DNA of 64,000 bases from Phycisphaeraceae bacterium (GTDB lineage: Bacteria; Planctomycetota; Phycisphaerae; Phycisphaerales; SM1A02). Below the pieces are notes generated by a model that was given only the letters and a program-made list of their open reading frames with translations, was not told the DNA's origin and made no database searches. Positions 7,154 to 35,839 of this stretch are shown piece by piece; within the stretch, counting starts at the first letter, position 1, and each line of letters starts with the position of its first letter. Where the stretch lies: assembly GCA_019636755.1 (NCBI GenBank), contig JAHBWZ010000003.1:495684-559683 (forward strand). Reading direction: 5' to 3'. Made by a program: the position numbers and the translations under genes.

Positions 7154-7655
7154 CGCTCTTCATTCCTCTCAGTCGAAGTTGGCCGCAGTGTACCGGTCGG
7201 CGAGGATCGCGGCACCTTCTGCCCGCGCGCTGCCCCGGGGAACCGGGCTGACGGGGCGCGGCACCCCGGTCACCGCGAGGCTCCGCGCGGCGCCGGGCAG
7301 ACGCCCTCCCGCGATCCAACCCCCGCGGTCACCCCCCCTGGCACCCTCCGGGTTGCCGCGTCGGGATGGCCGTGCGATACTCCCCCGTTCGAGTCTGCAT
7401 GCCGGTCGCGCCCGTGGGGGAACGCGGCGCCTCCGGCGGCCGTCTGTCCATTGTGTTCGTCATCCGGCCCTTGCCCGGCCGCTCAACCGCTCCCGCCCTC
7501 GTCGACCGGACCTCCCCATCCACGGAGTTCCGACGGCGCGTCGAGGGCCAGCCCGAGAGGCCGTCCAGGGAATGACCCGTTCAACCGTCCCAGGCACCCT
7601 CATTACGCCCGCCGCGCCCGGCCCCGGGGTGACGCGGGGAAGGACGATCCCGCCC
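7154..7655. other. Intergenic region between divergent dnaN and transketolase
   Basis: About 500 bp without a convincing gene; short open frames here have no recognisable motif or ribosome site. It must hold the divergent promoters. One sigma70-like candidate facing the transketolase gene is listed separately. I see no RNA gene. Confidence 0.6.
7353..7381 (+). promoter_or_regulatory. Candidate sigma70-type promoter upstream of transketolase
   Basis: TTGCCG (7353-7358), a 17-nt spacer and GATACT (7376-7381) match the -35/-10 layout. It lies about 275 nt before the transketolase ATG, so the leader would be long. Prediction by eye only. Confidence 0.3.
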
Positions 7656-9626
7656 ATGTCGTTTGAAGCCGCCGTCCACGCCAAGGCCCTCCAGCTCAAC
7701 CACGCCTGCCTGGAGATGTGCGCGGCGGCCGGCAGCGGACACCCGACCAGCGCCATGAGCATCAGCCACATCGTGACGGTGCTGATGTATCACACCATGC
7801 GCTGGCTTCCGGATCATCCCAGGTATCCCACCGCGGATCGCCTGGTCCTGTCCGAGGGGCACGCCGTTCCGATCGTCTACGCCGCCTTCGCCGATCTCCG
7901 CGGCGTCTTCGGGCGCGGCCAGGCGATCCGCCCGATGACGAGCGAGGACCTTCGGACGCTCCGGCAGAACGACTCGTTTCTCGACGGTCACCCCAACCCG
8001 ATGGAGGGGTTCCCCTTCTTCGATGCCGCCACCGGCTCCCTGGGCCAGGGACTCTCCATCGCGGCAGGTGTCGCCGCCGCGGCGCGCCGGGATGGACTGC
8101 GCCGGCACGTCTACTGCGTGATCGGTGACGGAGAAGCACGGGAGGGCCAGGTCACCGAGGCGCTCGACTTCATCATCGATCACGGCCTTGCGAACGTGCT
8201 TCCCATCTTCAATTGCAACGGCTACGGCCAGGCGGATGCGGTCAGTGGTCAGCAGTCGCCCGAGGTGCTGGAGCGGAAGCTCGCTGCCGCCGGATACACC
8301 GTCCGCACGATCGACGGACACGACCCGTCGGCGATCAAGGCGACCCTCGACCTCTTCGCGGAGCGCAGCGCCGGCAACCAGCCGATGGCGATCGTGGCGC
8401 GGACGGTGAAGGGCTGGGGGGCACCCTGCATCCAGGGCGGCGGGTGGCACGGCAAGCCGCCGACCGGACGGAAACTGGAACAGGCGCGCGAGGAACTCAA
8501 TGCCACCGGCGTCTCGCTGACATCGGCGCTCTCGCCGAACGAGCAGCTCCGCATCTATCCGCCGGACGAGCACCGCGTGCCCGAGGTCGAGGTCTCGGAG
8601 CCGATCACGCTGGACGAGGCGATGCGTCGCCTGGACATGACCCATGTGCTCCAGGGCGGCAAGTTCGCCACGCGCAAGGCGTACGGCCTCGCGCTGCGGA
8701 TGCTGGGACTTTCGAATCCCGGCGTCTACGTCCTCGATGCCGACGTCCGCAATTCCACGTTCGCGGAAGAGTTCCTGAAGGAGAAGGACCTCACGCCGCG
8801 TTTCCTCGAGTGCCGGATCGCCGAGCAGAACATGATCTCCGTGGGTGTCGGTCTTTCCGCCGCCGGGAAGATCCCCTTCTGCTCATCCTTCGCGAAGTTC
8901 CTGACCCGCGCCTACGACCAGATCGAGATGGCCATCTACTCGGGCGCCAACCTGAAGATCGTCGGAAGCCACAGCGGCATCTCGCTCGCCGCCGACGGCC
9001 CCAGCCAGATGGCCCTGCCCGACGTCGCCTGGTTCCGCGCTTTCACGACGATGCGCGATCACCACGGCGGGCCCGGGTGCTACCTGCTGCAGCCGGCCGA
9101 TGCCTTTGCCGCCTACGGCCTCACGATGGCCATGGCCCGGCATCACGGCGTCTGCTGCATGCGGACCTTCCGGCCGGACGTGGAGTTCATCTACGACAGC
9201 AACCATGTTTTCGAACTCGGTCGCTTCGAGGTCCTGACGGAAGGCCGCGACCTGCTCATCGTCTCCGCGGGCTACATGGTGCATGAGTGCAACAAGGCGC
9301 TCGAGCGGCTTGATCGCGCCGGGATCGACGCGTCACTCGTCGACCTCTACTCCATCCCGTTCGATACCGATGCACTCCTCGACCTGGCGAACCGCAACAA
9401 CGGCAACATCCTGACCGTCGAGGACAACTTCGGCGGCGGCATCGGATCGGCGGTCGCCGACGCGTGCGCCGAGTCGGGCGACGCATTCACGCTGCAGCAG
9501 ATGTGCGTCCGACGGATCCCGAAGTCCGCCATCGACGAGCCTTCGATCCTCCGCCAGTGCGGCCTCGATGCGGAGAGCATCGCCCGGACCGCCGCGAAGA
9601 TGCTCGGCGTCGCGGTCGGCTCCTGA
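7656..9626 (+). CDS. tkt: Transketolase
   Basis: 656 residues, the usual full transketolase length. The N-terminal thiamine diphosphate domain carries AGSGHPTSAMSISH, DGHPNPMEG, TGSLGQGLSIAAGVA and the GDG cofactor motif (GDGEAREGQ, from residue 157) ending in NCNGYGQ. The pyrimidine-binding domain has ECRIAEQNMISVGVGLSAAG with the catalytic Glu, then YDQIEMAIYSGANLKIVGSH. The C-terminal domain follows (VEDNFGGGIGSA). It transfers two-carbon ketol units between sugar phosphates in the pentose phosphate pathway. ATG 7656 is chosen because the conserved family N-terminus (MSFEAAVHAKALQLNHACLE) begins there; the frame is open further upstream but that part is not family-like. The next gene starts 3 nt after the stop. 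Confidence 0.94.
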   Translation: MSFEAAVHAKALQLNHACLEMCAAAGSGHPTSAMSISHIVTVLMYHTMRWLPDHPRYPTADRLVLSEGHAVPIVYAAFADLRGVFGRGQAIRPMTSEDLRTLRQNDSFLDGHPNPMEGFPFFDAATGSLGQGLSIAAGVAAAARRDGLRRHVYCVIGDGEAREGQVTEALDFIIDHGLANVLPIFNCNGYGQADAVSGQQSPEVLERKLAAAGYTVRTIDGHDPSAIKATLDLFAERSAGNQPMAIVARTVKGWGAPCIQGGGWHGKPPTGRKLEQAREELNATGVSLTSALSPNEQLRIYPPDEHRVPEVEVSEPITLDEAMRRLDMTHVLQGGKFATRKAYGLALRMLGLSNPGVYVLDADVRNSTFAEEFLKEKDLTPRFLECRIAEQNMISVGVGLSAAGKIPFCSSFAKFLTRAYDQIEMAIYSGANLKIVGSHSGISLAADGPSQMALPDVAWFRAFTTMRDHHGGPGCYLLQPADAFAAYGLTMAMARHHGVCCMRTFRPDVEFIYDSNHVFELGRFEVLTEGRDLLIVSAGYMVHECNKALERLDRAGIDASLVDLYSIPFDTDALLDLANRNNGNILTVEDNFGGGIGSAVADACAESGDAFTLQQMCVRRIPKSAIDEPSILRQCGLDAESIARTAAKMLGVAVGS

Positions 9627-25610: not shown

Positions 25611-26075
25611 GTGGACAGTGCCGGTCGATTCCCATCGCCGTCGAGACGCGGCCCGGCCCTCGCGGCCGCCGTGGTCGTGCTGACGGCACTCTCTGCCTGC
25701 CGTGCCCCGCTGAACGCGGCCGAGGCGACGCGCGCCTATCCGCTCGCGCTGCGGCGAGCCGAATCGATCGACATCCAGGTCTTCCGCGAGGGGACCGCCG
25801 TCGTACTCGTCAATGCAACGACGCGCTCCTTCCATGACTTCGATCTCTGGCTGAACGAGCGCTTCGTACGGTCCATCGGGCAGCTGGAAGCCGGCGAGAC
25901 GATCCGCGTTCCGCTGGCCGGCTTCCATGACGAGTCGGGCGAACGATTCGAACCTGGCGGGTTCTTCAGCGTGGTCCCGGCGACGCCCCTCTGGAAAGCG
26001 GAGCTGGAACTGGCACCGGACCAGGGACTCGTCGGGCTCGTCACGGTCGCCCGGTCACAGGAGCGCCGCCGCTGA
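25611..26075 (+). CDS. Small putative lipoprotein, first gene of the ligase operon
   Basis: 154 residues from GTG 25611. The signal peptide ends in LTALSAC (Cys at about residue 29), so it is a probable lipoprotein. The mature part (SIDIQVFREGTAVVLVNATT, FHDFDLWLNERFVRSIGQLE, GETIRVPLAGFHDESGERF) has the alternating pattern of an immunoglobulin-like beta sandwich; the family is not recognised. It is divergent from dus by 163 bp and 40 nt upstream of the C39-like peptidase gene, so probably cotranscribed with it. A GATACC box lies only a few nt before the GTG, so a leaderless transcript is possible. Confidence 0.65.
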   Translation: MDSAGRFPSPSRRGPALAAAVVVLTALSACRAPLNAAEATRAYPLALRRAESIDIQVFREGTAVVLVNATTRSFHDFDLWLNERFVRSIGQLEAGETIRVPLAGFHDESGERFEPGGFFSVVPATPLWKAELELAPDQGLVGLVTVARSQERRR

Positions 26076-26115
26076 GCCCGTCCCGGCGCATCGCCCCGCC
26101 CGGTGCGGGTCTGCC

Positions 26116-26841
26116 ATGAAACCGACCCCGCTGAAGCTCGAGATCCTCGCCCAACCGACCGACACGACCTGCGGCCCCACCTGTCTGCACGCGGTCTACC
26201 GCTACTACGGCGACGACATCGCACTCAGTCGCGTGATCGAGGAGACGCACATCCTCGAGGGCGGAGGAACGCTCGCCGTCTTTCTCGCCTGCCATGCGCT
26301 CCGACGCGGCTACCGCGCGCGCATCTACACCTACAACCTGCGCGTCTTCGACCCATCGTGGTTCGACCCTGACAGGACGGTTGATCTCGCGGAGCGTCTC
26401 CGCGCCCAGATGCGGTCGAAGAGCAAGGCGAAGCTGCACCTGGCGTCACATGCATACCTGGATTTCCTGTCGCTCGGCGGCGAAGTCCGCTTCCGGGACC
26501 TCTCAGCCGACCTGCTGCGGAAGTACCTGCGTCGGGGCGCCCCGATCCTGACCGGCCTCAGCGCCACCTACCTCTACCACTGCCCGCGGGAAACCGACGA
26601 ACCGCTGCGCTACGACGACCTGCACGGCCTGCCGCAGGGACACTTCGTCGTTCTCGGCGGGTATGACCGCACAACGCGGTGTGTGCAGGTGGCCGATCCC
26701 CTGCGGGACAATCCCCCTTTCCGGTCGCATCACTACGACGTCAGCTTCGACCGCCTGGTCGGCGCGATCATGCTGGGCGTCCTGACCTACGATGCGAACC
26801 TGCTCATCGTCGAACCCGATCCGGACAAGCACCATGCCTGA
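26116..26841 (+). CDS. C39-like papain-fold peptidase
   Basis: 241 residues without a signal peptide or membrane helix, so cytoplasmic. The N-terminal motif LAQPTDTTCGPTCLHAVYRY supplies Gln13 (oxyanion) and nucleophile Cys19. GHFVVLGGYD supplies His176 and VQVADPL supplies Asp194. This is the bacteriocin-processing-type C39 fold, but it is stand-alone and not fused to an ABC transporter. The likely role is trimming a peptide or removing a tag made by the neighbouring ligases. The stop overlaps the start of the ATP-grasp gene by 8 nt, which argues for coupled translation. The substrate is unknown; an amidase or transglutaminase-like activity cannot be excluded. Confidence 0.82.
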   Translation: MKPTPLKLEILAQPTDTTCGPTCLHAVYRYYGDDIALSRVIEETHILEGGGTLAVFLACHALRRGYRARIYTYNLRVFDPSWFDPDRTVDLAERLRAQMRSKSKAKLHLASHAYLDFLSLGGEVRFRDLSADLLRKYLRRGAPILTGLSATYLYHCPRETDEPLRYDDLHGLPQGHFVVLGGYDRTTRCVQVADPLRDNPPFRSHHYDVSFDRLVGAIMLGVLTYDANLLIVEPDPDKHHA

Positions 26842-28459
26842 CGCCCATGACGTCGTCGACGCACCCGAAGAGCCGGCGGATGAGCCTCCTTCTTCCTCGT
26901 CCGCGCCGTCGCCCGCGCCGGACGGTGGCCGGACGGAATCCGCATCTCGGCGGCGGGACGCCCGGGGCGCCACGGATCACCGGGACGCGCACGATCGGAA
27001 CGGTCGGAGCATCCTGATCGTCGTCGACAATCCGAAGCGATGGCCGCTGCACATCCCGGGGATCGAGGTCGTCGCCGCGCGGGAGTATCTCACGGACTCG
27101 AAGTACGCAGCGCGCTCGGGCGTCCACGTCTTCAATCTCTGCCGGTCACACAGGTACCAGACGACGGGATACTACGTGTCGCTGCTCGCGACCGCGCGCG
27201 AGCACCGGCCGCTCCCCACGATCTCGACACTCCAGGACCTCCGACTGGCACCCGTTCTCCGTGTCGCGTCCAACGAGCTCGACGAACTGATCCAGTCATC
27301 GCTGCGATCACTCCGGAGCGACAGCTTCCAGTTGAGCGTCTACTTCGGCCGCAACGTCTCCCCCCGCTACCTGCGCCTTTCCCTGGCGCTCTTCAACCAG
27401 TTCCCGGCTCCGCTGCTTCGAGCAAGCTTCGTCCGGCACCAGGGCGCATGGGAACTCGAGGGTGTCCGGATCATCGGCACAAGTGAGATTCCGGACGAGC
27501 ACCGCCCCTTCGTCGTCGAACAGGCGGAGGCGTACTTCCGGCGCCCGATCCGGAAGCGCAAGCCGCGTGCTCACCCACGATTCGACATGGCGATCCTCCG
27601 CGACGAGCACGAGTCCATGCCTCCCTCCGATCCCGAGGCAATCGAGAAGTTCGTCGACGCGGCCGAGTCGCTGGGCTTCCGGACCGAACTCATCACCCGC
27701 GATGACTACGGCCGTCTGGCGGAGTTCGACTCGCTCCTCATCCGCGAGACGACGCGTGTGAATCACCACACGTTCCGCTTCGCGCGGCGGGCCACGGCAG
27801 AGGGCCTCGTTGTCGTCGACGATCCGGACTCGATCCTCCGCTGCACGAACAAAGTCTTTCTCACGGAACTCATGACGCGGCACGAGATCCCGATCCCGCG
27901 CTCCGTGATCGTCTCACGCGATACCGCGGACCTGGTCGGGCAATCGATCGGCTTCCCCTGCGTGATCAAGCAGCCGGACTCCTCGTTCTCGCTCGGCGTC
28001 GAGAAGATCGACTCGGCGGAGACGTTCGAACGGGACCTCCCCCGCCTCTTCGAGCAGACCGAACTGCTGCTTGCCCAGGAGTTCGTCCCGACCGACTTCG
28101 ACTGGCGCATCGGTGTCCTCGCCGGCGAGCCGCTCTTCGCATGTCGATACTACATGGCCCGTAAGCACTGGCAGATCTACCGGCACGAGGGCGGCCGATC
28201 GGAGTCAGGCACGGCGGACACCATCCCGGTGGAAGACGCTCCTCCGCGCGTCGTCTCGCTTGCCGTCCGCGCCGCCCGCCTCATCGGAACCGGCCTGTAC
28301 GGTGTCGACATCAAGGTCATCCGGAACCGGCCGGTCATCATCGAGATCAATGACAACCCGAGCATCGACGCCGACGTCGAGGATCGTGTGCTCGGCGACG
28401 AGCTCTACCGCAGGATCATCGAGTACTTCGTCGATCGCCTCGAAGCACGCCGCCGCTGA
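26834..28459 (+). CDS. RimK-like ATP-grasp ligase with RLAN domain
   Basis: 541 residues. The first ~60 are a disordered acidic/Pro/Ser-rich leader. Residues ~60-230 form the RLAN domain (RSILIVVDNPKRWPLHIPGI, VHVFNLCRSHRYQTTGYYVS). Residues ~260-541 are an ATP-grasp of the RimK type: LIRETTRVNHHTFRFARRA, NKVFLTELMTRHEIPIPRS, FPCVIKQPDSSFSLGVEKI, LLAQEFVPTDFDWRIGVLAG and YGVDIKVIRNRPVIIEINDN with the metal-binding E-x-N. Enzymes of this class form amide bonds through acyl-phosphates, often adding Glu to peptides or amino acids. It overlaps the peptidase gene by 8 nt and lies 22 nt before the GCS2 gene. The amino-acid acceptor is unknown. Confidence 0.88.
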   Translation: MPDAHDVVDAPEEPADEPPSSSSAPSPAPDGGRTESASRRRDARGATDHRDAHDRNGRSILIVVDNPKRWPLHIPGIEVVAAREYLTDSKYAARSGVHVFNLCRSHRYQTTGYYVSLLATAREHRPLPTISTLQDLRLAPVLRVASNELDELIQSSLRSLRSDSFQLSVYFGRNVSPRYLRLSLALFNQFPAPLLRASFVRHQGAWELEGVRIIGTSEIPDEHRPFVVEQAEAYFRRPIRKRKPRAHPRFDMAILRDEHESMPPSDPEAIEKFVDAAESLGFRTELITRDDYGRLAEFDSLLIRETTRVNHHTFRFARRATAEGLVVVDDPDSILRCTNKVFLTELMTRHEIPIPRSVIVSRDTADLVGQSIGFPCVIKQPDSSFSLGVEKIDSAETFERDLPRLFEQTELLLAQEFVPTDFDWRIGVLAGEPLFACRYYMARKHWQIYRHEGGRSESGTADTIPVEDAPPRVVSLAVRAARLIGTGLYGVDIKVIRNRPVIIEINDNPSIDADVEDRVLGDELYRRIIEYFVDRLEARRR

Positions 28460-28481
28460 CAGGAAGCAGGATCCACCCGCC

Positions 28482-29744
28482 ATGGAAGGCACGACCGCCG
28501 CATACCGCTACGACATAGGACTCTTCGGCGCCTACGGCGTCGAACTCGAGTACATGATCGTCGATGCCCGGACGCTCGATGTCATGCCGATCGCCGATCG
28601 GCTGCTGGCCCGCGAGGGCGGGCCCGGCGCATCAGATGCCTCGCCACCGTCACTGCACGGCGCCATCGACTGGTCCAACGAACTCACCGCGCACGTCATC
28701 GAGTTCAAGACGGCGACTCCGGCGCCGTCGCTGACCGGACTCGCTGATCGCTTCCTCTCGAGCGTCCGGCTTGCGAACGATCACCTCCGGGAGGAGGGCG
28801 CCATGCTCCTGCCGACGGCGATGCATCCCTGGATGGATCCCGAGCGGGAGATGCGGCTGTGGCCGCACGAATACGGTGAGGTCTATGCACTGCTGGACCG
28901 GATCTTCTCCTGCCGGGGACATGGGTGGGCGAACCTTCAGAGCGCGCACCTCAATCTTCCCTTCGCGGACGACGAGGAATTCGGTCGGCTGCACGCGGCG
29001 ATCCGCTGCATACTCCCGCTGATCCCGGCACTCGCCGCATCGTCCCCGATCGTCGAAGGACGCGTGACCGGCCTGCGCGACACCCGGCTGGAGACCTACA
29101 GGACCAACAGCCAGCGGATTCCCTCGTGCGCGGCACGCGTGATCCCGGAGCCCGTGTTCACCCGGGAAGCGTACGGCGCGGAGATCTTCCGAGCCATCGA
29201 TGCCGATCTCGCGCCGTTCGATCCGGCGAGGATCCTTCACCACGAGTGGATGAACGCACGGGGCTGCATTGCGCGGTTCATGCGCGGCGCAATCGAGATC
29301 CGCCTCGTGGACGTGCAGGAGAGTCCAGGGGCAGACTGCGCGATCCTGCGCCTGATCTGCGCGGTTCTCGAGGCACTGACACGGGAGATCCTTTCTCCCC
29401 TTGCCGCGCAGCAGGCGATCGCGGTCGAGCCGCTCCACGCGGCGCTCCTTGCCGGTATCCGCGATGCTGAGGAAGCCGTGATCGACGATCGCAGCATACT
29501 CTCCGCACTCGGGCTTCCCGCACTGGCCTGTCGAGCCGGCGATGCATGGCGCATGCTGCGAGAACGGACGCTGACCACGGCGGGGCCATGGGACACGGCG
29601 CTCGACATCATCGAGCGCCGCGGCACACTCGCCACGCGGATCCTGCATGCTGCCGGCGATGCGCCGTCACGGGACCGGCTTCGCAGCATCTATCTTGAGC
29701 TTGCCGGGTGTCTGCAGCATGGTCACCTCTTCGATCCGACATGA
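28482..29744 (+). CDS. GCS2-type glutamate-cysteine ligase-like enzyme
   Basis: 420 residues. FGAYGVELEYMIVDARTLDV holds the GxExE motif of the carboxylate-amine ligase fold; IDWSNELTAHVIEFKTATP, WANLQSAHLNLPFADDEEF, SSPIVEGRVTGLRDTRLETY and GAIEIRLVDVQESPGADC match the GCS2 subgroup. This group shares its fold with glutamine synthetase and links the gamma-carboxylate of Glu (or a related acid) to an amine using ATP. In this operon it is more likely one of two amidoligases building a small peptide than a glutathione enzyme, since no gshB is present. It starts 22 nt after the ATP-grasp stop; its stop overlaps the next ATG (ATGA). Confidence 0.87.
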   Translation: MEGTTAAYRYDIGLFGAYGVELEYMIVDARTLDVMPIADRLLAREGGPGASDASPPSLHGAIDWSNELTAHVIEFKTATPAPSLTGLADRFLSSVRLANDHLREEGAMLLPTAMHPWMDPEREMRLWPHEYGEVYALLDRIFSCRGHGWANLQSAHLNLPFADDEEFGRLHAAIRCILPLIPALAASSPIVEGRVTGLRDTRLETYRTNSQRIPSCAARVIPEPVFTREAYGAEIFRAIDADLAPFDPARILHHEWMNARGCIARFMRGAIEIRLVDVQESPGADCAILRLICAVLEALTREILSPLAAQQAIAVEPLHAALLAGIRDAEEAVIDDRSILSALGLPALACRAGDAWRMLRERTLTTAGPWDTALDIIERRGTLATRILHAAGDAPSRDRLRSIYLELAGCLQHGHLFDPT

Positions 29745-30505
29745 CCCGCGGACGCTCGGTCACCCCCCGGTCGAATCAGCTGCTCATCACCTGTGAGCAC
29801 GGTGGCCATGCCGTCCCGACCGATCTTCGCCCGATCTTCCTCGGCGCGGGCGAGATCCTGCGTTCACACCGCGGCTGGGATCCGGGCGCCCTGGCGGTCG
29901 CGGTCGAACTTGCTGCCGGAACCTCGGCGCCGCTGCTGGCCACAACGATCTCACGACTTGTTGTCGAGTGCAATCGTTCCGTCGGTCACCCGAGGCTCTT
30001 CTCGGAGTTCACCCGCCACCTGGATCCATCGCAGCGGAAGTCGCTGCTCGATCGCTGCTACTTTCCGCACCGTCACGCGGTTGAATCGATCCTGGAGGCG
30101 CTCACACGCGTGTCGCCGACGGTGCATCTGGGGATTCACTCCTTCACGCCGGTGCTCGACGGGTACATTCGTCGAGTGGACATCGGCATACTCTTCGACC
30201 CGGCGCGCCCGTTCGAGCGGAGCGTCGCCGGCCGACTGCGCCGCCGGATCCTGCATGCGGCTCCCGGCCTGCGCGTCCGATTCAATGCGCCGTACCGCGG
30301 AACCAGCGACGGCCTGACGACGGCACTTCGCGGGCGGTTCTCCGTTGCGCGATACGCGGGCATCGAGATCGAGATCAACCAGAATCTCGTCAGGTCGCGG
30401 GCGCGGCAGCGCGCAATCGCGGGCCTGCTGATTGATGCTGCGGTCGGGCGCGATGATGTCCCGGCCGTCACCTCCGGCCGCGGTGATCACTCGCCCGCGG
30501 CGTGA
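29741..30505 (+). CDS. N-formylglutamate amidohydrolase family protein
   Basis: 254 residues with family motifs LLITCEHGGHAVP (metal-binding Glu-His), SHRGWDPGALAVAVELA, TTISRLVVECNRSVGHPRLF, VHLGIHSFTPVLDG and GIEIEINQNLV. The family comprises zinc-dependent amidases related to carboxypeptidases that release acyl groups or amino acids from N-acyl-glutamate-like compounds. Its start overlaps the GCS2 stop, closing a four-gene set (peptidase, ATP-grasp, GCS2, amidohydrolase). It probably removes a Glu-linked group in the same pathway rather than degrading histidine; no hut genes are nearby. No clear terminator follows; a repeat-rich gene-poor region begins. Confidence 0.88.
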   Translation: MTRGRSVTPRSNQLLITCEHGGHAVPTDLRPIFLGAGEILRSHRGWDPGALAVAVELAAGTSAPLLATTISRLVVECNRSVGHPRLFSEFTRHLDPSQRKSLLDRCYFPHRHAVESILEALTRVSPTVHLGIHSFTPVLDGYIRRVDIGILFDPARPFERSVAGRLRRRILHAAPGLRVRFNAPYRGTSDGLTTALRGRFSVARYAGIEIEINQNLVRSRARQRAIAGLLIDAAVGRDDVPAVTSGRGDHSPAA

Positions 30506-31414
30506 GCGACATCGACGATGGTGCCGGCCGACAGCGCCGGATGTGCGAGGCGCTGCGGCGTGCGTGGACGGCGCGATGCGGCGGTCCGGTGGCCTGACCC
30601 GGCTGCTGAGTGTGGATGGGTCGGACAGAATCGGTCCTGGACCCCGACAGCGCCGTCCGGCGCGGGGGCCTCGGTGGCTTGCGCGGCGGCGTGCAGACCC
30701 GACCCGCGATCAGGCACGGATCGCGTCCGCCCAGGGCCGGATCGTGACGGTGCCGGTGCAGCAACGCCTTTGACGACAGGTGAAGCGGCGCCCGCCGTGC
30801 CCGGCTGTCGAGTCGCCCATGCGTCGGGGCGCGCCGGCTCTTCCTGCGATGGATGTCCGTGGCATGCCGGACACATGCTCTGACGAGCGGCAGTCGTGTG
30901 ATAAGGGCGATCTGCCATCGCCGTTCCGCAGGGAGCGTGGGGCGCTCCCGACCGGACACCGTCAGCGCCTGCCGCAACCGCGCGCCGCGGCGCTCCACAG
31001 GGACGGCGAGCCCCCGACCGCCTCGATCGTCCGGTGGCGTGCCATGCACCCGCGGCTGCGGGATCGGCGTGCCTGTCACGGCGAGATCCGTGTGGGCGTG
31101 CCATGCACCCGCGGCTGCAGGATCGGCGTGCCTGTCACGGCGAGGTCCGGCACGGGCGTGCCTGTCTTCCCCGCGTCCCGTCGCTCCGCCCGCGATCGCA
31201 GACTTCCCGAAGCATTTTCATCAGACCTGGTCGACCACGTCCCCCCGCCCCGTACCTTCAATCCTGCAGTGCCGCCGTCACCGGTCGGGGTGCTCCCGTC
31301 GTGGGGCGCCGGGCGGCGGACACTGTCGCAGAGGCGGCCCGGCGTGTGATTGACCGGCGCCTCCGGCACCGCACGCCGTGCCGCCGCTGCGCACACTCCG
31401 GGGAGCCATGCTCG
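30506..31414. other. Gene-poor region with 30-bp repeat array ahead of the RAYT-like gene
   Basis: About 900 bp with no supported gene on either strand; open frames here lack motifs and ribosome sites. It contains the tandem repeat array at 31039-31187. Downstream of it, the segment 31196-31245 (cgatcgcagacttcccgaag, later cctggtcgaccac) resembles 35464-35537, next to the second array. No tRNA or other RNA gene was recognised. Confidence 0.65.
31039..31187 (+). repeat. Tandem ~30-bp repeat array A (five units), REP-like
   Basis: Units start at 31039, 31069, 31098, 31128 and 31158 (spacing 29-30). Each begins gtgcc, alternating gtgccatgcacccgcggctg and gtgcctgtcacggcgag, so a ~59-bp double unit is repeated. 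There are no unique spacers, so it is not CRISPR. It shares its core with array B and lies 228 bp before the RAYT-like gene, the usual setting of REP sequences. Confidence 0.75.
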
Positions 31415-32680: not shown

Positions 32681-33205
32681 TCACCCGGAACTCGGATCCG
32701 GCCTCCGCACGTAGCGCCTGAACGTGAACGAGTGTGCATGCGTCGCATCCGCCGGGTGCCGTTCCTCCTCGACCATCGTCCACTCTGACCGCGGCCACTC
32801 CGGAAACCGGGCATCACCCTCGAATGCGTCATCGATCCCGGTCAGGTCCAGTTCGTCCGCCATCGGCAGCGCGGCACGATACACCGCCTCGCCCCCGATG
32901 ATGAAGACCGTGTCACCTCCGGGTGCTTCGCGCGCATGGGCGATCGCGTCCTGAATCGACCTGGCCACGACTGCACCCGGCGTATCCGGGGGGAGCGAAC
33001 CCGAAAGCACGATGTTGGTCCGCCCGCGCAGCGGCGCCTTGAGCGACTCCCATGTCCGCCGGCCCATGACGACCGGGTGATGACGGGTCCGGGCCATGAA
33101 CCGGCGCATGTCATCCGGCAGATGCCAGGGAAGGCCGCCCTCACGACCGATGACGCCGTTCGCAGCCACCGCGGCGATGAGGATGATCCTGCAGTTGGTG
33201 TTCAC
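32681..33205 (-). CDS. folA: Dihydrofolate reductase
   Basis: 174 residues, normal DHFR length. It shows IILIAAVAANGVIGREGGLPWHLPDDMRRF, with the Trp-containing substrate loop and the acidic Asp26-type residue (PDDM), HHPVVMGRRTWESL, NIVLSGS, FIIGGEAVYRAALPMADELD and a C-terminal FTFRRYVRR strand. It reduces dihydrofolate with NADPH. The start is GTG 33205, giving the family N-terminus; an in-frame ATG at 33232 would add nine residues but would overlap the divergent DJ-1 gene start. thyA is not in the window. Confidence 0.93.
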   Translation of the reverse strand: MNTNCRIILIAAVAANGVIGREGGLPWHLPDDMRRFMARTRHHPVVMGRRTWESLKAPLRGRTNIVLSGSLPPDTPGAVVARSIQDAIAHAREAPGGDTVFIIGGEAVYRAALPMADELDLTGIDDAFEGDARFPEWPRSEWTMVEEERHPADATHAHSFTFRRYVRRPDPSSG

Positions 33206-33230
33206 CTGTACCACGATACACTCAGCGCCC

Positions 33231-33881
33231 ATGCATGCATCCCGCCCTCCGGAAGTGGTAGCGATTCTGCTCTTCAACGATGTGGAGGTGCTGGACTTCG
33301 CCGGGCCGCTGGAGGTCTTCGGCGTCACGGCGGAACACGAATCGCCCTCCCCCTTCCGCGTACTCACGGCAACGCCCGACGGCCGCGGCATCGTGGCCCG
33401 CACCGGCCTGCGCGTCCTGCCGGACACCTCGTGGGCGGCGCTGGCCGAGGCGTCCATCCTGGTCATCCCCGGCGGCCAGGGATCGCGCGCCGTCGTCGCG
33501 GATCCCGACCAGATGACACAGGTTCACCGGCTTGCCGGGAGCGCCGAGGTCACGCTCTCGGTCTGCACCGGCGCTCGCATCCTGGCCTGCGCCGGAATGC
33601 TGGACGGGCTCACGATCACGACGCATCATGTCGCCATCGCGGAATTGCGGGAGCGCGTCCCGTCGGCGACCGTCAGGACCGGCGTCCGATTCTGCGATAA
33701 CGGACGGATCGTGACCGCGGCGGGCGTCTCCGCGGGGATGGATGCTGCGCTGCACGTGGTCGGACGGCGCCTGGGCATACACGTCGCGGCACGGACTGCG
33801 CGACTCATGGAGTACCTGCCTCCGCGTTCGAGTGGTTCATGCGATGCGGAGCCCGCGGACGCTGGCCGACCGATGCACTGA
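33231..33881 (+). CDS. DJ-1/PfpI family protein
   Basis: 216 residues. VVAILLFNDVEVLDFAGPLEVF is the conserved start (with the Glu that pairs with the nucleophile), ILVIPGGQGSRAV is followed by LSVCTGARILACAGMLDG with the nucleophilic Cys, then TTHHVAIAEL with His and TAAGVSAGMDAALHVVGRRL. This subgroup (class I glutamine amidotransferase-like, often the N-terminal half of GlxA-type regulators) includes isonitrile hydratases and transcription factors, but no DNA-binding domain is present here, so an enzyme is likelier. It is divergent from folA with almost no spacer; GATACA at 33216 could be its -10 box. A terminator follows at 33990. Confidence 0.88.
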   Translation: MHASRPPEVVAILLFNDVEVLDFAGPLEVFGVTAEHESPSPFRVLTATPDGRGIVARTGLRVLPDTSWAALAEASILVIPGGQGSRAVVADPDQMTQVHRLAGSAEVTLSVCTGARILACAGMLDGLTITTHHVAIAELRERVPSATVRTGVRFCDNGRIVTAAGVSAGMDAALHVVGRRLGIHVAARTARLMEYLPPRSSGSCDAEPADAGRPMH

Positions 33882-34646: not shown

Positions 34647-35839
34647 CGTGCTCCTTGTCCCGGATGGGCCGGGTCGTGAGAATGAACCCCGGACGCACGA
34701 TCAAGGCACTCGATGACCACGACGGCGCGCGGTTGTCCAGTCGTTCTCCTGCGGCGCTTCCGTCCTGGACAGTGCGACACAGGCCGAAGAAGCGCGAGGC
34801 TCCGACCGAACCGGACTCCATGTGGCGACAGTCATGCATCCCGGCGTCACGCCGAGGCCGGGACTCGGCCTCCGAAATGCGCCTGGTGCCCGCGGCCTCA
34901 CGACATCGGCCGGCCGGGGGAACCAATCTGGCGAACGTGCCCGATCCACGGATGGCCGCACCCGCGCGTGCTGTCGGCGCGACCTGGCGCTCCGAGCGAG
35001 CGACCTCGTGCAGCCACCATGGCTGCCGCCCCGCGACGCGGGGTGGACTGGCGATGGCTGTGGGAGATCCGGGTCTGCACGACCCCACCCCGTGGCGGGC
35101 GCGCGGCGTGCGCCAGCGTCGTTGCCGATCGGTGGGGGCGACCCCTGGCCGCGTGCGCCTCAGCCCTGATCCTCTCTCCGGGTCCTGCGCCGACGGCACG
35201 CCGGCGGTCGCCCCCGGGCCACCGACGTGCGCTGTCTCGATGGACCGCACGCGGGGGTGAACGAGTCTCCCCGGACCCGGGTCGGCGCGCCACTCACCCC
35301 GGTGGCCGCACCGGAGTGCCACGCACCCCCCGGTCCCACGGCGGCGTGCCTGCCACCCCCCGGGACCAACGGAGGCGTGCCTGTCACACCCCGGGACCAA
35401 CGGAGGCGTGCCTGTCACACCCCGGGACCAACCCGGCGCCGAGGCCCCTCCCGGACCAGTCCCGTCGATCGCAAACCCTCGAAGCGACGGCTGAAACCTC
35501 TTCGTACTATCCTTCACGAACTGGTGGTCGACCAGGCCCTCCGGCGCCACACAAGACCGGGTTCGCGTTCCCGTCTCCCAGGGCTCGGAGCGACCGGACC
35601 CGCTCCTTTAGAATGCGGTGGAGGGGTGTCGCCCTCGCCGCGGAGGCCCGTGCCGATCGGGCGCCGGGCCAGCCGTCCGCACGTCGCCCGGCCAGGAGGC
35701 CATCCGGAGCGTCGGACCCCGGGCGCCGCGTCGAGGGTCCGGGCACGTGTCCGGTGTCCGACACGCGGCGACTCCGGCCGGCAGTCCCGCGGGCGTGCCG
35801 GCGCCGGCCATGCCCCGCATCTGCTTCAAGGAACCAGCC
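34647..35839. other. Gene-poor region with repeat array B
   Basis: About 1.2 kb without a supported gene on either strand. It holds tandem repeats at 35316-35438 and, just after them, sequence resembling that beside array A (cgatcgcaaaccctcgaagc at 35464, gtggtcgaccag near 35524). TAGAAT at 35609-35614 is a possible -10 box for the acyl-CoA dehydrogenase operon, without a clear -35. I recognise no pseudogene, although the length suggests lost genes. Confidence 0.6.
35316..35438 (+). repeat. Tandem 30/31-bp repeat array B (four units), REP-like
   Basis: Units start at 35316, 35346, 35377 and 35408. The last two are identical over their first 24 bases (gtgcctgtcacaccccggga and on) and the first two are diverged (gtgccacgcacc, gtgcctgccacc). 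There are no unique spacers. The gtgcctgtcac core is the same as in array A, 4.2 kb away, but no transposase gene is adjacent. Confidence 0.75.

Follow-up and report, generated by a model that had tools for sequence, protein, structure and literature searches.

A conserved operon that joins two predicted amide ligases and two predicted amide hydrolases in bacteria of many phyla

Introduction

Several described systems share individual features with the locus reported here. In GshF, an example of the ligases that act sequentially in making a metabolite, the GCS domain comes first, and the genes for N-acetylglutaminylglutamine amide (NAGGN) comprise an asnO-type amidotransferase and a GNAT-ATP-grasp synthetase. 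Other points of comparison are the RimABK, LysX/ArgX, YbdK/EgtA and HutG systems. We have analyzed a 64,000-nucleotide (nt) stretch of DNA, hereafter called the window, which is part of a 4.1-Mb assembly of a Phycisphaeraceae bacterium (contig JAHBWZ010000003.1). The subject of this report is a four-gene operon in the window encoding, in order, a C39-like cysteine peptidase, a ligase composed of an RLAN domain and a RimK-like ATP-grasp domain, a carboxylate-amine ligase of the GCS2 family, and an enzyme resembling N-formylglutamate amidohydrolase.

A 2009 survey of amidoligases by Iyer and colleagues is reportedly the source of the RLAN name and of this gene neighborhood. Among the titles and abstracts listed in our literature search, none concerned this four-gene set. 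Added here are the member found in the window, natural RLAN-GCS2 fusions, an exchange of GCS2 for a GNAT protein, and the dismissal of an adjacent lipoprotein-like gene from the set, although any of these may already have been reported.

Comparison with described systems

The operon shares a RimK-like ATP-grasp fold with RimK and, like RimABK, it places a ligase beside a hydrolase. One paper describes the pairing of RimK with a glutamate-removing protease, the stripping of glutamates from polyglutamylated RpsF by RimB, and the existence of RimB-RimK hybrids (PMC11957791). The operon differs from RimABK in its RLAN N-terminal domain, its GCS2 partner, and a cysteine peptidase in the place of the retropepsin-like RimB, and its ATP-grasp protein scores 33 bits against the equivalog cut-off of 331 for RimK acting in S6 glutamylation (PRK10446). 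The best NCBIfam score of this protein is to LysX_arch (77.3 bits, far under the cut-off of 275.6), and its fold matches 5k2m (TMt 0.83). Unlike for LysX/ArgX, no LysW-like carrier was seen among the gene clusters neighboring the operon, which were inspected without a search aimed at LysW.

For glutathione synthesis, the ATP-grasp protein reaches 10.4 bits where glutathione synthase (PRK05246) requires 272, and the GCS2 protein 28.8 of the 249 bits set for gshA_cyano, both below the curated cut-offs. In contrast to GshF, or to GshA with GshB, the operon has an RLAN domain, an ATP-grasp domain of the RimK/LysX kind, and two attached hydrolases, and the natural fusions described below put ATP-grasp first, the reverse of the GshF arrangement. 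The GCS2 protein is also well below the thresholds for YbdK (TIGR02050, 40.7 versus 176.4 bits) and EgtA (16 versus 370.8 bits) and, judged by its sequence, is a separate subfamily tied to RLAN. The amidohydrolase exceeds the cut-off of the broad family PF05013 but obtains 14 of the 278.75 bits required of the HutG N-formylglutamate deformylase (TIGR02017). A profile for PF14395 (COOH-NH2_lig) found no match in the window's genome, and its control matched nowhere either.

Results

The four genes keep one order across bacterial phyla

Scanning genome contigs with an alignment of RLAN sequences identified 583 relatives, and the best 80 of these were taken as 80 titled loci, a choice that makes the sample lean toward near relatives of the query. 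The trio C39-RLAN-GCS2 is present in 63 of the 80, always in the same order and on one strand, and all four genes are present in 40, again with order and strand preserved every time. Counted singly, the partners of RLAN occur in 67 (C39), 71 (GCS2), and 41 (amidohydrolase; 42 with L092) of these loci. Amidohydrolase counts are lower bounds because the profile missed the copy in L092 that Pfam found, and several loci end at contig ends. The ordered four-gene set recurs in 13 of 19 fetched relatives, and the trio in 15 of them.

Loci with a linked GCS2 gene carry 16 phylum labels by record title and come mostly from metagenome assemblies. Acidobacteriota is left uncounted among these labels because the contig concerned (L059) is also that of a relative from the order of the window. 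Isolates with all four genes are Thiobacillus thioparus, Pontibacter species, and Marivirga sericea, and those with three are Nitrosomonas communis and Blastopirellula marina. Based on predicted starts, and with L027 and L030 left out, the median spacing is −4 nt between C39 and RLAN (81 loci), −4 nt between RLAN and GCS2 (85 loci), and −1 nt between GCS2 and the amidohydrolase (52 loci), with 76 of 81, 71 of 85, and 47 of 52 loci, respectively, spaced by 30 nt or less. The genes thus constitute a conserved set with fixed order on one strand in unrelated phyla.

The ligases are linked in every sampled genome of the phylum with a strong match to both

To describe co-occurrence, we used a sample of 246 genomes of the phylum and counted RLAN matches at an expectation value (E) of 0.001 and strong matches for GCS2 (E 1e-80 or better), C39 (E 1e-50 or better), and the amidohydrolase (E < 2e-50). 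These thresholds leave out weak matches in five genomes for GCS2 (E 2e-5 to 8e-4), six for C39 (E 4e-8 to 6e-4), 10 for the amidohydrolase (E 3e-33 to 3e-4, including G222), and three for DUF3335 (E 1e-5 to 1e-3). RLAN was found in 65 genomes, GCS2 in 49, C39 in 45, and the amidohydrolase in 37. RLAN and GCS2 occur together in 47 genomes versus 12.9 expected if they were independent, a figure that ignores relatedness, and the two genes are linked in all 47. Similarly, of the 44 genomes having both C39 and RLAN, 43 have C39 linked on the upstream side. A strong amidohydrolase match is always accompanied by GCS2 (37 of 37 genomes), with the amidohydrolase gene linked in 32, and this finding suggests that the amidohydrolase may act on the GCS2 product. 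Amidohydrolase scores fall into two groups separated by a gap between 2e-50 and 3e-33; when the cut is relaxed to E 0.001, 47 genomes match, of which 38 have strong GCS2.

Natural fusions place both ligases in one protein

RLAN, ATP-grasp, and GCS2 are encoded in a single open frame of 990 to 1028 codons in five of the 246 genomes (Pfam domains were verified on three of these five), and in a sixth case, cut by a contig end (L130), the end of the ATP-grasp domain is joined to GCS2. A C39 gene precedes the fusion in L128 and L129, and an amidohydrolase gene follows it in L129. A search with the L128 fusion protein gave 466 matches, and both PF14401 and PF04107 are present in each of the 120 listed, one of which is the query itself. 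Organisms named among the listed matches are Planctomycetes, Gemmatimonadota (including Longimicrobium), and Myxococcota, and the listed fused proteins are called just “glutamate-cysteine ligase family protein” or similar.

The five fused RLAN sequences form one clade with 98% support by the Shimodaira–Hasegawa-like approximate likelihood ratio test in a quick tree, which was built without L027 and L030 (the same contigs as L059 and L060) and without the incomplete L036 and L118. In these five fusions, nine of nine tested ATP-grasp positions and 20 of 22 GCS2 positions are kept. It can be argued that, since the two ligases are naturally fused, both work on one substrate chain. The fusions strengthen a reading in which the operon builds and trims a peptide.

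Catalytic residues and folds are conserved

Near-complete copies were available from 80 of 83 loci for C39, 80 of 87 for GCS2, 101 of 103 for RLAN, and 51 of 54 for the amidohydrolase, and the residue counts exclude L027, L030, and incomplete rows. Gln13, Cys19, His176, and Asp194 of the C39-like peptidase, proposed as its catalytic set in an earlier reading made from the sequence of the window alone (hereafter the sequence-only reading), are each invariant in 79 of 79 rows. K340, K379, D492, E504, and N508 of the ATP-grasp ligase, which we take to be ATP and Mg residues, are kept in 100 of 100 rows, as are E19, H20, R72, N78, H133, and R144 of the amidohydrolase in 50 of 50. The latter enzyme presumably binds zinc, as its family does. 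The sequence-only reading had named two outcomes that would undo its pathway proposal, namely genes scattered and unlinked in relatives, or active-site residues lost. Neither outcome was seen: the order and close packing are conserved, no variation was found at the catalytic residues examined, and the set is left standing.

The AlphaFold model of the RLAN/ATP-grasp protein (predicted local distance difference test, pLDDT, 84.9) has RimK, ArgX, LysX, and Ddl as its nearest folds, and its matches include the RimK–RpsF (5zk6) and ArgX–LysW (3vpb) complexes. With PF14401 joined to ATP-grasp and the presumed ATP and Mg residues intact, the protein belongs with the RLAN-type RimK-like ligases. The modeled GCS2 protein, compared with YbdK and plant GCL, has the fold of PF04107, and profile, fold, and conserved residues all place it in this family. 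Neither the protein nor its profile matches a PDB sequence at E 0.001. The C39 family profile reaches C39 peptidases of ABC transporters in the PDB (the peptidase domains of bacteriocin and ComA transporters), and the amidohydrolase profile matches Atu2144 (2odf, E 7e-39). A search of PHROGs gave a weak RimK-like match only.

A GNAT-DUF3335(C39) protein replaces GCS2 at other RLAN loci

The gene directly upstream of RLAN encodes a GNAT-DUF3335 protein (DUF3335 is PF11814) in Azospirillum, Tistrella, and a few Planctomycetota, where RLAN is not followed by GCS2. A paper that cites the 2009 amidoligase survey also notes GNAT fusions of DUF3335 (PMC10318531). In the phylum sample, a strong DUF3335 match occurs in four genomes, in each at 0.7 to 0.8 kb upstream of RLAN, and none of the four has GCS2, a free C39, or the amidohydrolase. 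Pfam confirmed the GNAT-DUF3335(C39) architecture in L041, L043, L133, L137, and L140; a five-locus cluster containing this protein is Pfam-identified in L041 and L043, and the members from L042, L085, and L108 are located elsewhere. The C39-like domain of DUF3335 is related to the C39 protein of the operon (hhalign probability 91%). These pairs resemble the operon in their RLAN-ATP-grasp protein and related C39 domain, and differ from it in having GNAT for GCS2 and no amidohydrolase in the four sample genomes. On one reading, GNAT and GCS2 would both acylate the amine of a common precursor, and the swap and the fusions together suggest a shared substrate.

At L133, a DUF2817 gene overlaps the start of the GNAT-DUF3335 gene that precedes RLAN (7165-8430). 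DUF2817 was considered as a counterpart of the amidohydrolase and rejected, as there was no profile match and the hhalign probability was 0.3%. In the Planctomycetota family f17, a divergent RLAN open reading frame (ORF) of ~295 codons neighbors an ATP-grasp ORF of ~350 codons (L136, 5404-7844; L139, 4306-6205). Because the two are separate ORFs there, RLAN may be a stand-alone subunit in this family.

Layout of the operon in the window

The coordinates of the operon and its parts are given in Table 1. RLAN translation would start inside the C39 gene (an 8-nt overlap), a 22-nt gap precedes GCS2, and the GCS2 and amidohydrolase genes share the 4 nt ATGA; these spacings, together with the 40 nt separating the lipoprotein-like ORF from C39, are exactly as the sequence-only reading had them. 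All four proteins exceed Pfam cut-offs (PF13529; PF14401 with PF08443; PF04107; PF05013). Several of the nearest named relatives of the RLAN ligase are Phycisphaerales proteins. The same reading had given this ligase an acidic, disordered leader of about 60 residues. The disorder is present in the AlphaFold model (residues 1-55 have pLDDT < 50), but the acidity is just mild, with 13 D and E versus 8 R and 3 H among 58 residues. Of 16 other rows in an alignment, two have a long leader, one has a leader of intermediate length, and the remaining 13 have none or a much shorter one.

Table 1. Coordinates of the operon, its predicted proteins and domains, and the adjacent lipoprotein-like ORF in the window
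Feature	Position	Strand	Basis
Four-gene operon, C39–RLAN/ATP-grasp–GCS2–amidohydrolase	26116-30505	+	ORFs and Pfam
C39-like papain-fold cysteine peptidase, 241 amino acids, predicted active	26116..26841	+	PF13529, 36.3 bits (cut-off 24)
RLAN/RimK-like ATP-grasp amide ligase, 541 amino acids	26834..28459	+	PF14401, 151.4 bits; PF08443, 28.9 bits
RLAN domain, residues 82-229	27077..27520	+	PF14401 match
RimK-like ATP-grasp domain, residues 339-530	27848..28423	+	PF08443 match
GCS2-family carboxylate-amine ligase, 420 amino acids	28482..29744	+	PF04107, above cut-off
N-formylglutamate-amidohydrolase-like enzyme, predicted zinc amidohydrolase, 254 amino acids	29741..30505	+	PF05013, 84.6 bits
Lipoprotein-like ORF, GTG start	25611-26075	+	Ends 40 nt before the C39 gene

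The lipoprotein-like ORF is a separate gene

The sequence-only reading counted five genes, of which the four enzyme genes hold as a set and the lipoprotein-like ORF does not belong. This ORF contains LSAC, which we read as a lipobox, and has no Pfam match; its 19 matches in the protein collection are its own near-copy and relatives at 40 to 50% identity. A search with an alignment of these relatives found a family copy in 118 of the 121 genomes of the order, and the family has a conserved FDLW motif. RLAN occurs in 20 of 61 genomes of the relatives sample, the window's own counted. Both searches covered 16 other genomes with RLAN. In 15 of these, the lipoprotein and RLAN genes are on separate contigs, and in G042 they are separated by 333 kb, such that none of the 16 relatives carrying both has the lipoprotein near the ATP-grasp gene. 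A single-sequence search of the fetched loci (L021 to L142 without L124) also found it in 0 of 121.

This order-wide presence, together with the absence of linkage in the 16 relatives and the 121 loci, leads us to reject the lipoprotein as a fifth operon member, and it is likeliest a local neighbor. The suggestion that it serves as a sensor or target is unsupported, because among the genomes checked its order-wide family adjoins the operon only in the window. Beyond this ORF lies a divergent dihydrouridine synthase gene.

Neighboring genes and repeats

No convincing conserved small ORF that might encode a substrate or precursor was found beside the operon among the 15 largest short-ORF clusters listed. 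Fourteen of these are confined to close relatives, and the exception (L036, L064, and L110) covers three loci with inconsistent places and strands. A divergent precursor could escape, because the search, made without L027 and L030, relied on pairwise BLAST of ATG-started ORFs only. No other gene family at a fixed place beside the set was noted among the 40 largest neighbor clusters listed, and the frequent non-core clusters inspected are other-frame ORFs overlapping core genes or families of close relatives.

Downstream in the window, tandem arrays at 31036-31166 and 35327-35432 consist of ~30-base units that share GGCGTGCCTGTCAC, and the two arrays are possibly one dispersed repeat. A dihydrofolate reductase ORF (32681-33463) and a DJ-1/PfpI ORF (33096-33878) lie on opposite strands, and their longest frames overlap.

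Discussion

We tentatively favor a two-step ligase pathway resembling that of GshF, in which the operon would make a small, soluble peptide of the gamma-glutamyl type that the two hydrolases trim or recycle. By homology, GCS2 would join the gamma-carboxyl of glutamate to an amine, and the RLAN/RimK-like ATP-grasp enzyme would then extend this product by a further residue at a carboxyl, in that order. Family chemistry predicts that both ligases form amides through an acyl-phosphate and that the other two enzymes hydrolyze amides, and the substrate of these hydrolases would be a cytosolic peptide. We give less weight to three parts of this scheme, namely the identity of the amino acid as glutamate, the nature of the product (a soluble metabolite and not a modified protein), and the GCS2 product as the substrate of the amidohydrolase. 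A pathway that builds and trims such a peptide was already the proposal of the sequence-only reading, and it is still the best prediction, with gene order and packing, co-occurrence, predicted folds, invariant catalytic residues, and the RLAN-GCS2 fusions as its observed support.

Several observations weigh against this pathway. All four proteins score below the cut-off of every NCBIfam model listed. The GCS2 part of the fusions has R175 changed to A and R265 to K, both of which are invariant in 79 unfused rows, and their RLAN part has Y85 changed to F and F171 to L or M. The four genes also need not occur together. Five loci (L023, L039, L058, L113, and L114) carry RLAN with no match to the other three genes in a profile search of the loci, and 18 of the 65 RLAN genomes in the phylum sample are without strong GCS2, 14 of them also without strong DUF3335, where at least one of the 18 (G304) is cut by a contig end. 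The association of the amidohydrolase with GCS2 depends on the cut, given nine genomes without strong GCS2 that match at E 3e-33 to 3e-4, and PF05013 is absent in 17 of 23 genomes chosen for showing no linked amidohydrolase. Because these 17 have no copy at all, the amidohydrolase step appears to be optional.

The GNAT-C39 loci, moreover, are not one clade, as four of the five rows group with L040 and L134 and L133 stands apart, and L134 has GNAT without C39. Finally, genome G081 has GCS2 and the amidohydrolase with no RLAN or C39 by profile, a pair that is possibly a reduced version of the set. There, at 6124-8237 of L132, the GCS2 gene adjoins the amidohydrolase gene, and the profiles detect neither RLAN nor C39 in the surrounding 14 kb or in the rest of the genome.

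The main rival, drawn by analogy with RimK and RimB, is that the RLAN/RimK-like ligase and GCS2 would add glutamate or a similar residue to the end or a side chain of a protein, from which the hydrolases would remove it. That both RimK and C39 peptidases have protein substrates in other systems counts in its favor and against a soluble peptide, as do the close fold matches to RimK with RpsF (5zk6) and ArgX with LysW (3vpb) and the tie of a papain-fold peptidase to the set. We nevertheless regard protein tagging as somewhat unlikely, given that the 15 largest short-ORF clusters listed yielded no convincing candidate for a conserved small or carrier protein next to the operon, that the fusion of the ligase to GCS2 resembles sequential metabolite ligases such as GshF, and that nothing in the matched RimK chains of ~290 residues evidently corresponds to the RLAN part.

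A more specific and rather doubtful proposal is an undescribed cofactor system of the glutathione kind. Here the ligase pair, fused into a GshF-like enzyme in some Planctomycetota, Gemmatimonadota, and Myxococcota, would make a gamma-glutamyl-X-amino-acid tripeptide in bacteria of 16 phylum labels. Turnover would depend on a dedicated C39 peptidase and N-acyl-glutamate amidohydrolase, and other RLAN loci would cap the same core through GNAT.

We consider it improbable that the product is, by analogy with NAGGN, an N-capped compatible solute, a dipeptide osmolyte that would bear a gamma-glutamyl cap from GCS2 here and an acetyl group from GNAT elsewhere. The replacement of GCS2 and free C39 by GNAT-C39 at other RLAN loci is consistent with this idea, since both GNAT and GCS2 enzymes can acylate an amine, and some carriers belong by title to the marine genera Marivirga and Blastopirellula. 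However, carriers also include Nitrosomonas and Thiobacillus, which are not known as halophiles, no transporter or regulator family holds a fixed place among the neighbor clusters listed, and the NAGGN gene set, at which no search was aimed, is different. Least probable by far is an antimicrobial or signaling peptide of the graspetide type with an unrecognized precursor, to which the matches of the C39-like profile to peptidase domains of bacteriocin and ComA transporters might point, as the clusters listed contain no convincing precursor-like conserved small ORF (15 largest) and no ABC transporter at a fixed place, and a fixed four-gene order in many phyla is generally unlike such clusters.

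If the operon makes one soluble peptide, as we favor, then a metabolite common to many bacterial phyla has gone unseen, and it could be sought in vitro with just one protein, a natural RLAN-GCS2 fusion. If it instead modifies a protein, it would represent a second glutamylation writer-eraser system beside RimABK. In either case, the RLAN domain and a large subfamily of GCS2 enzymes would gain a function.

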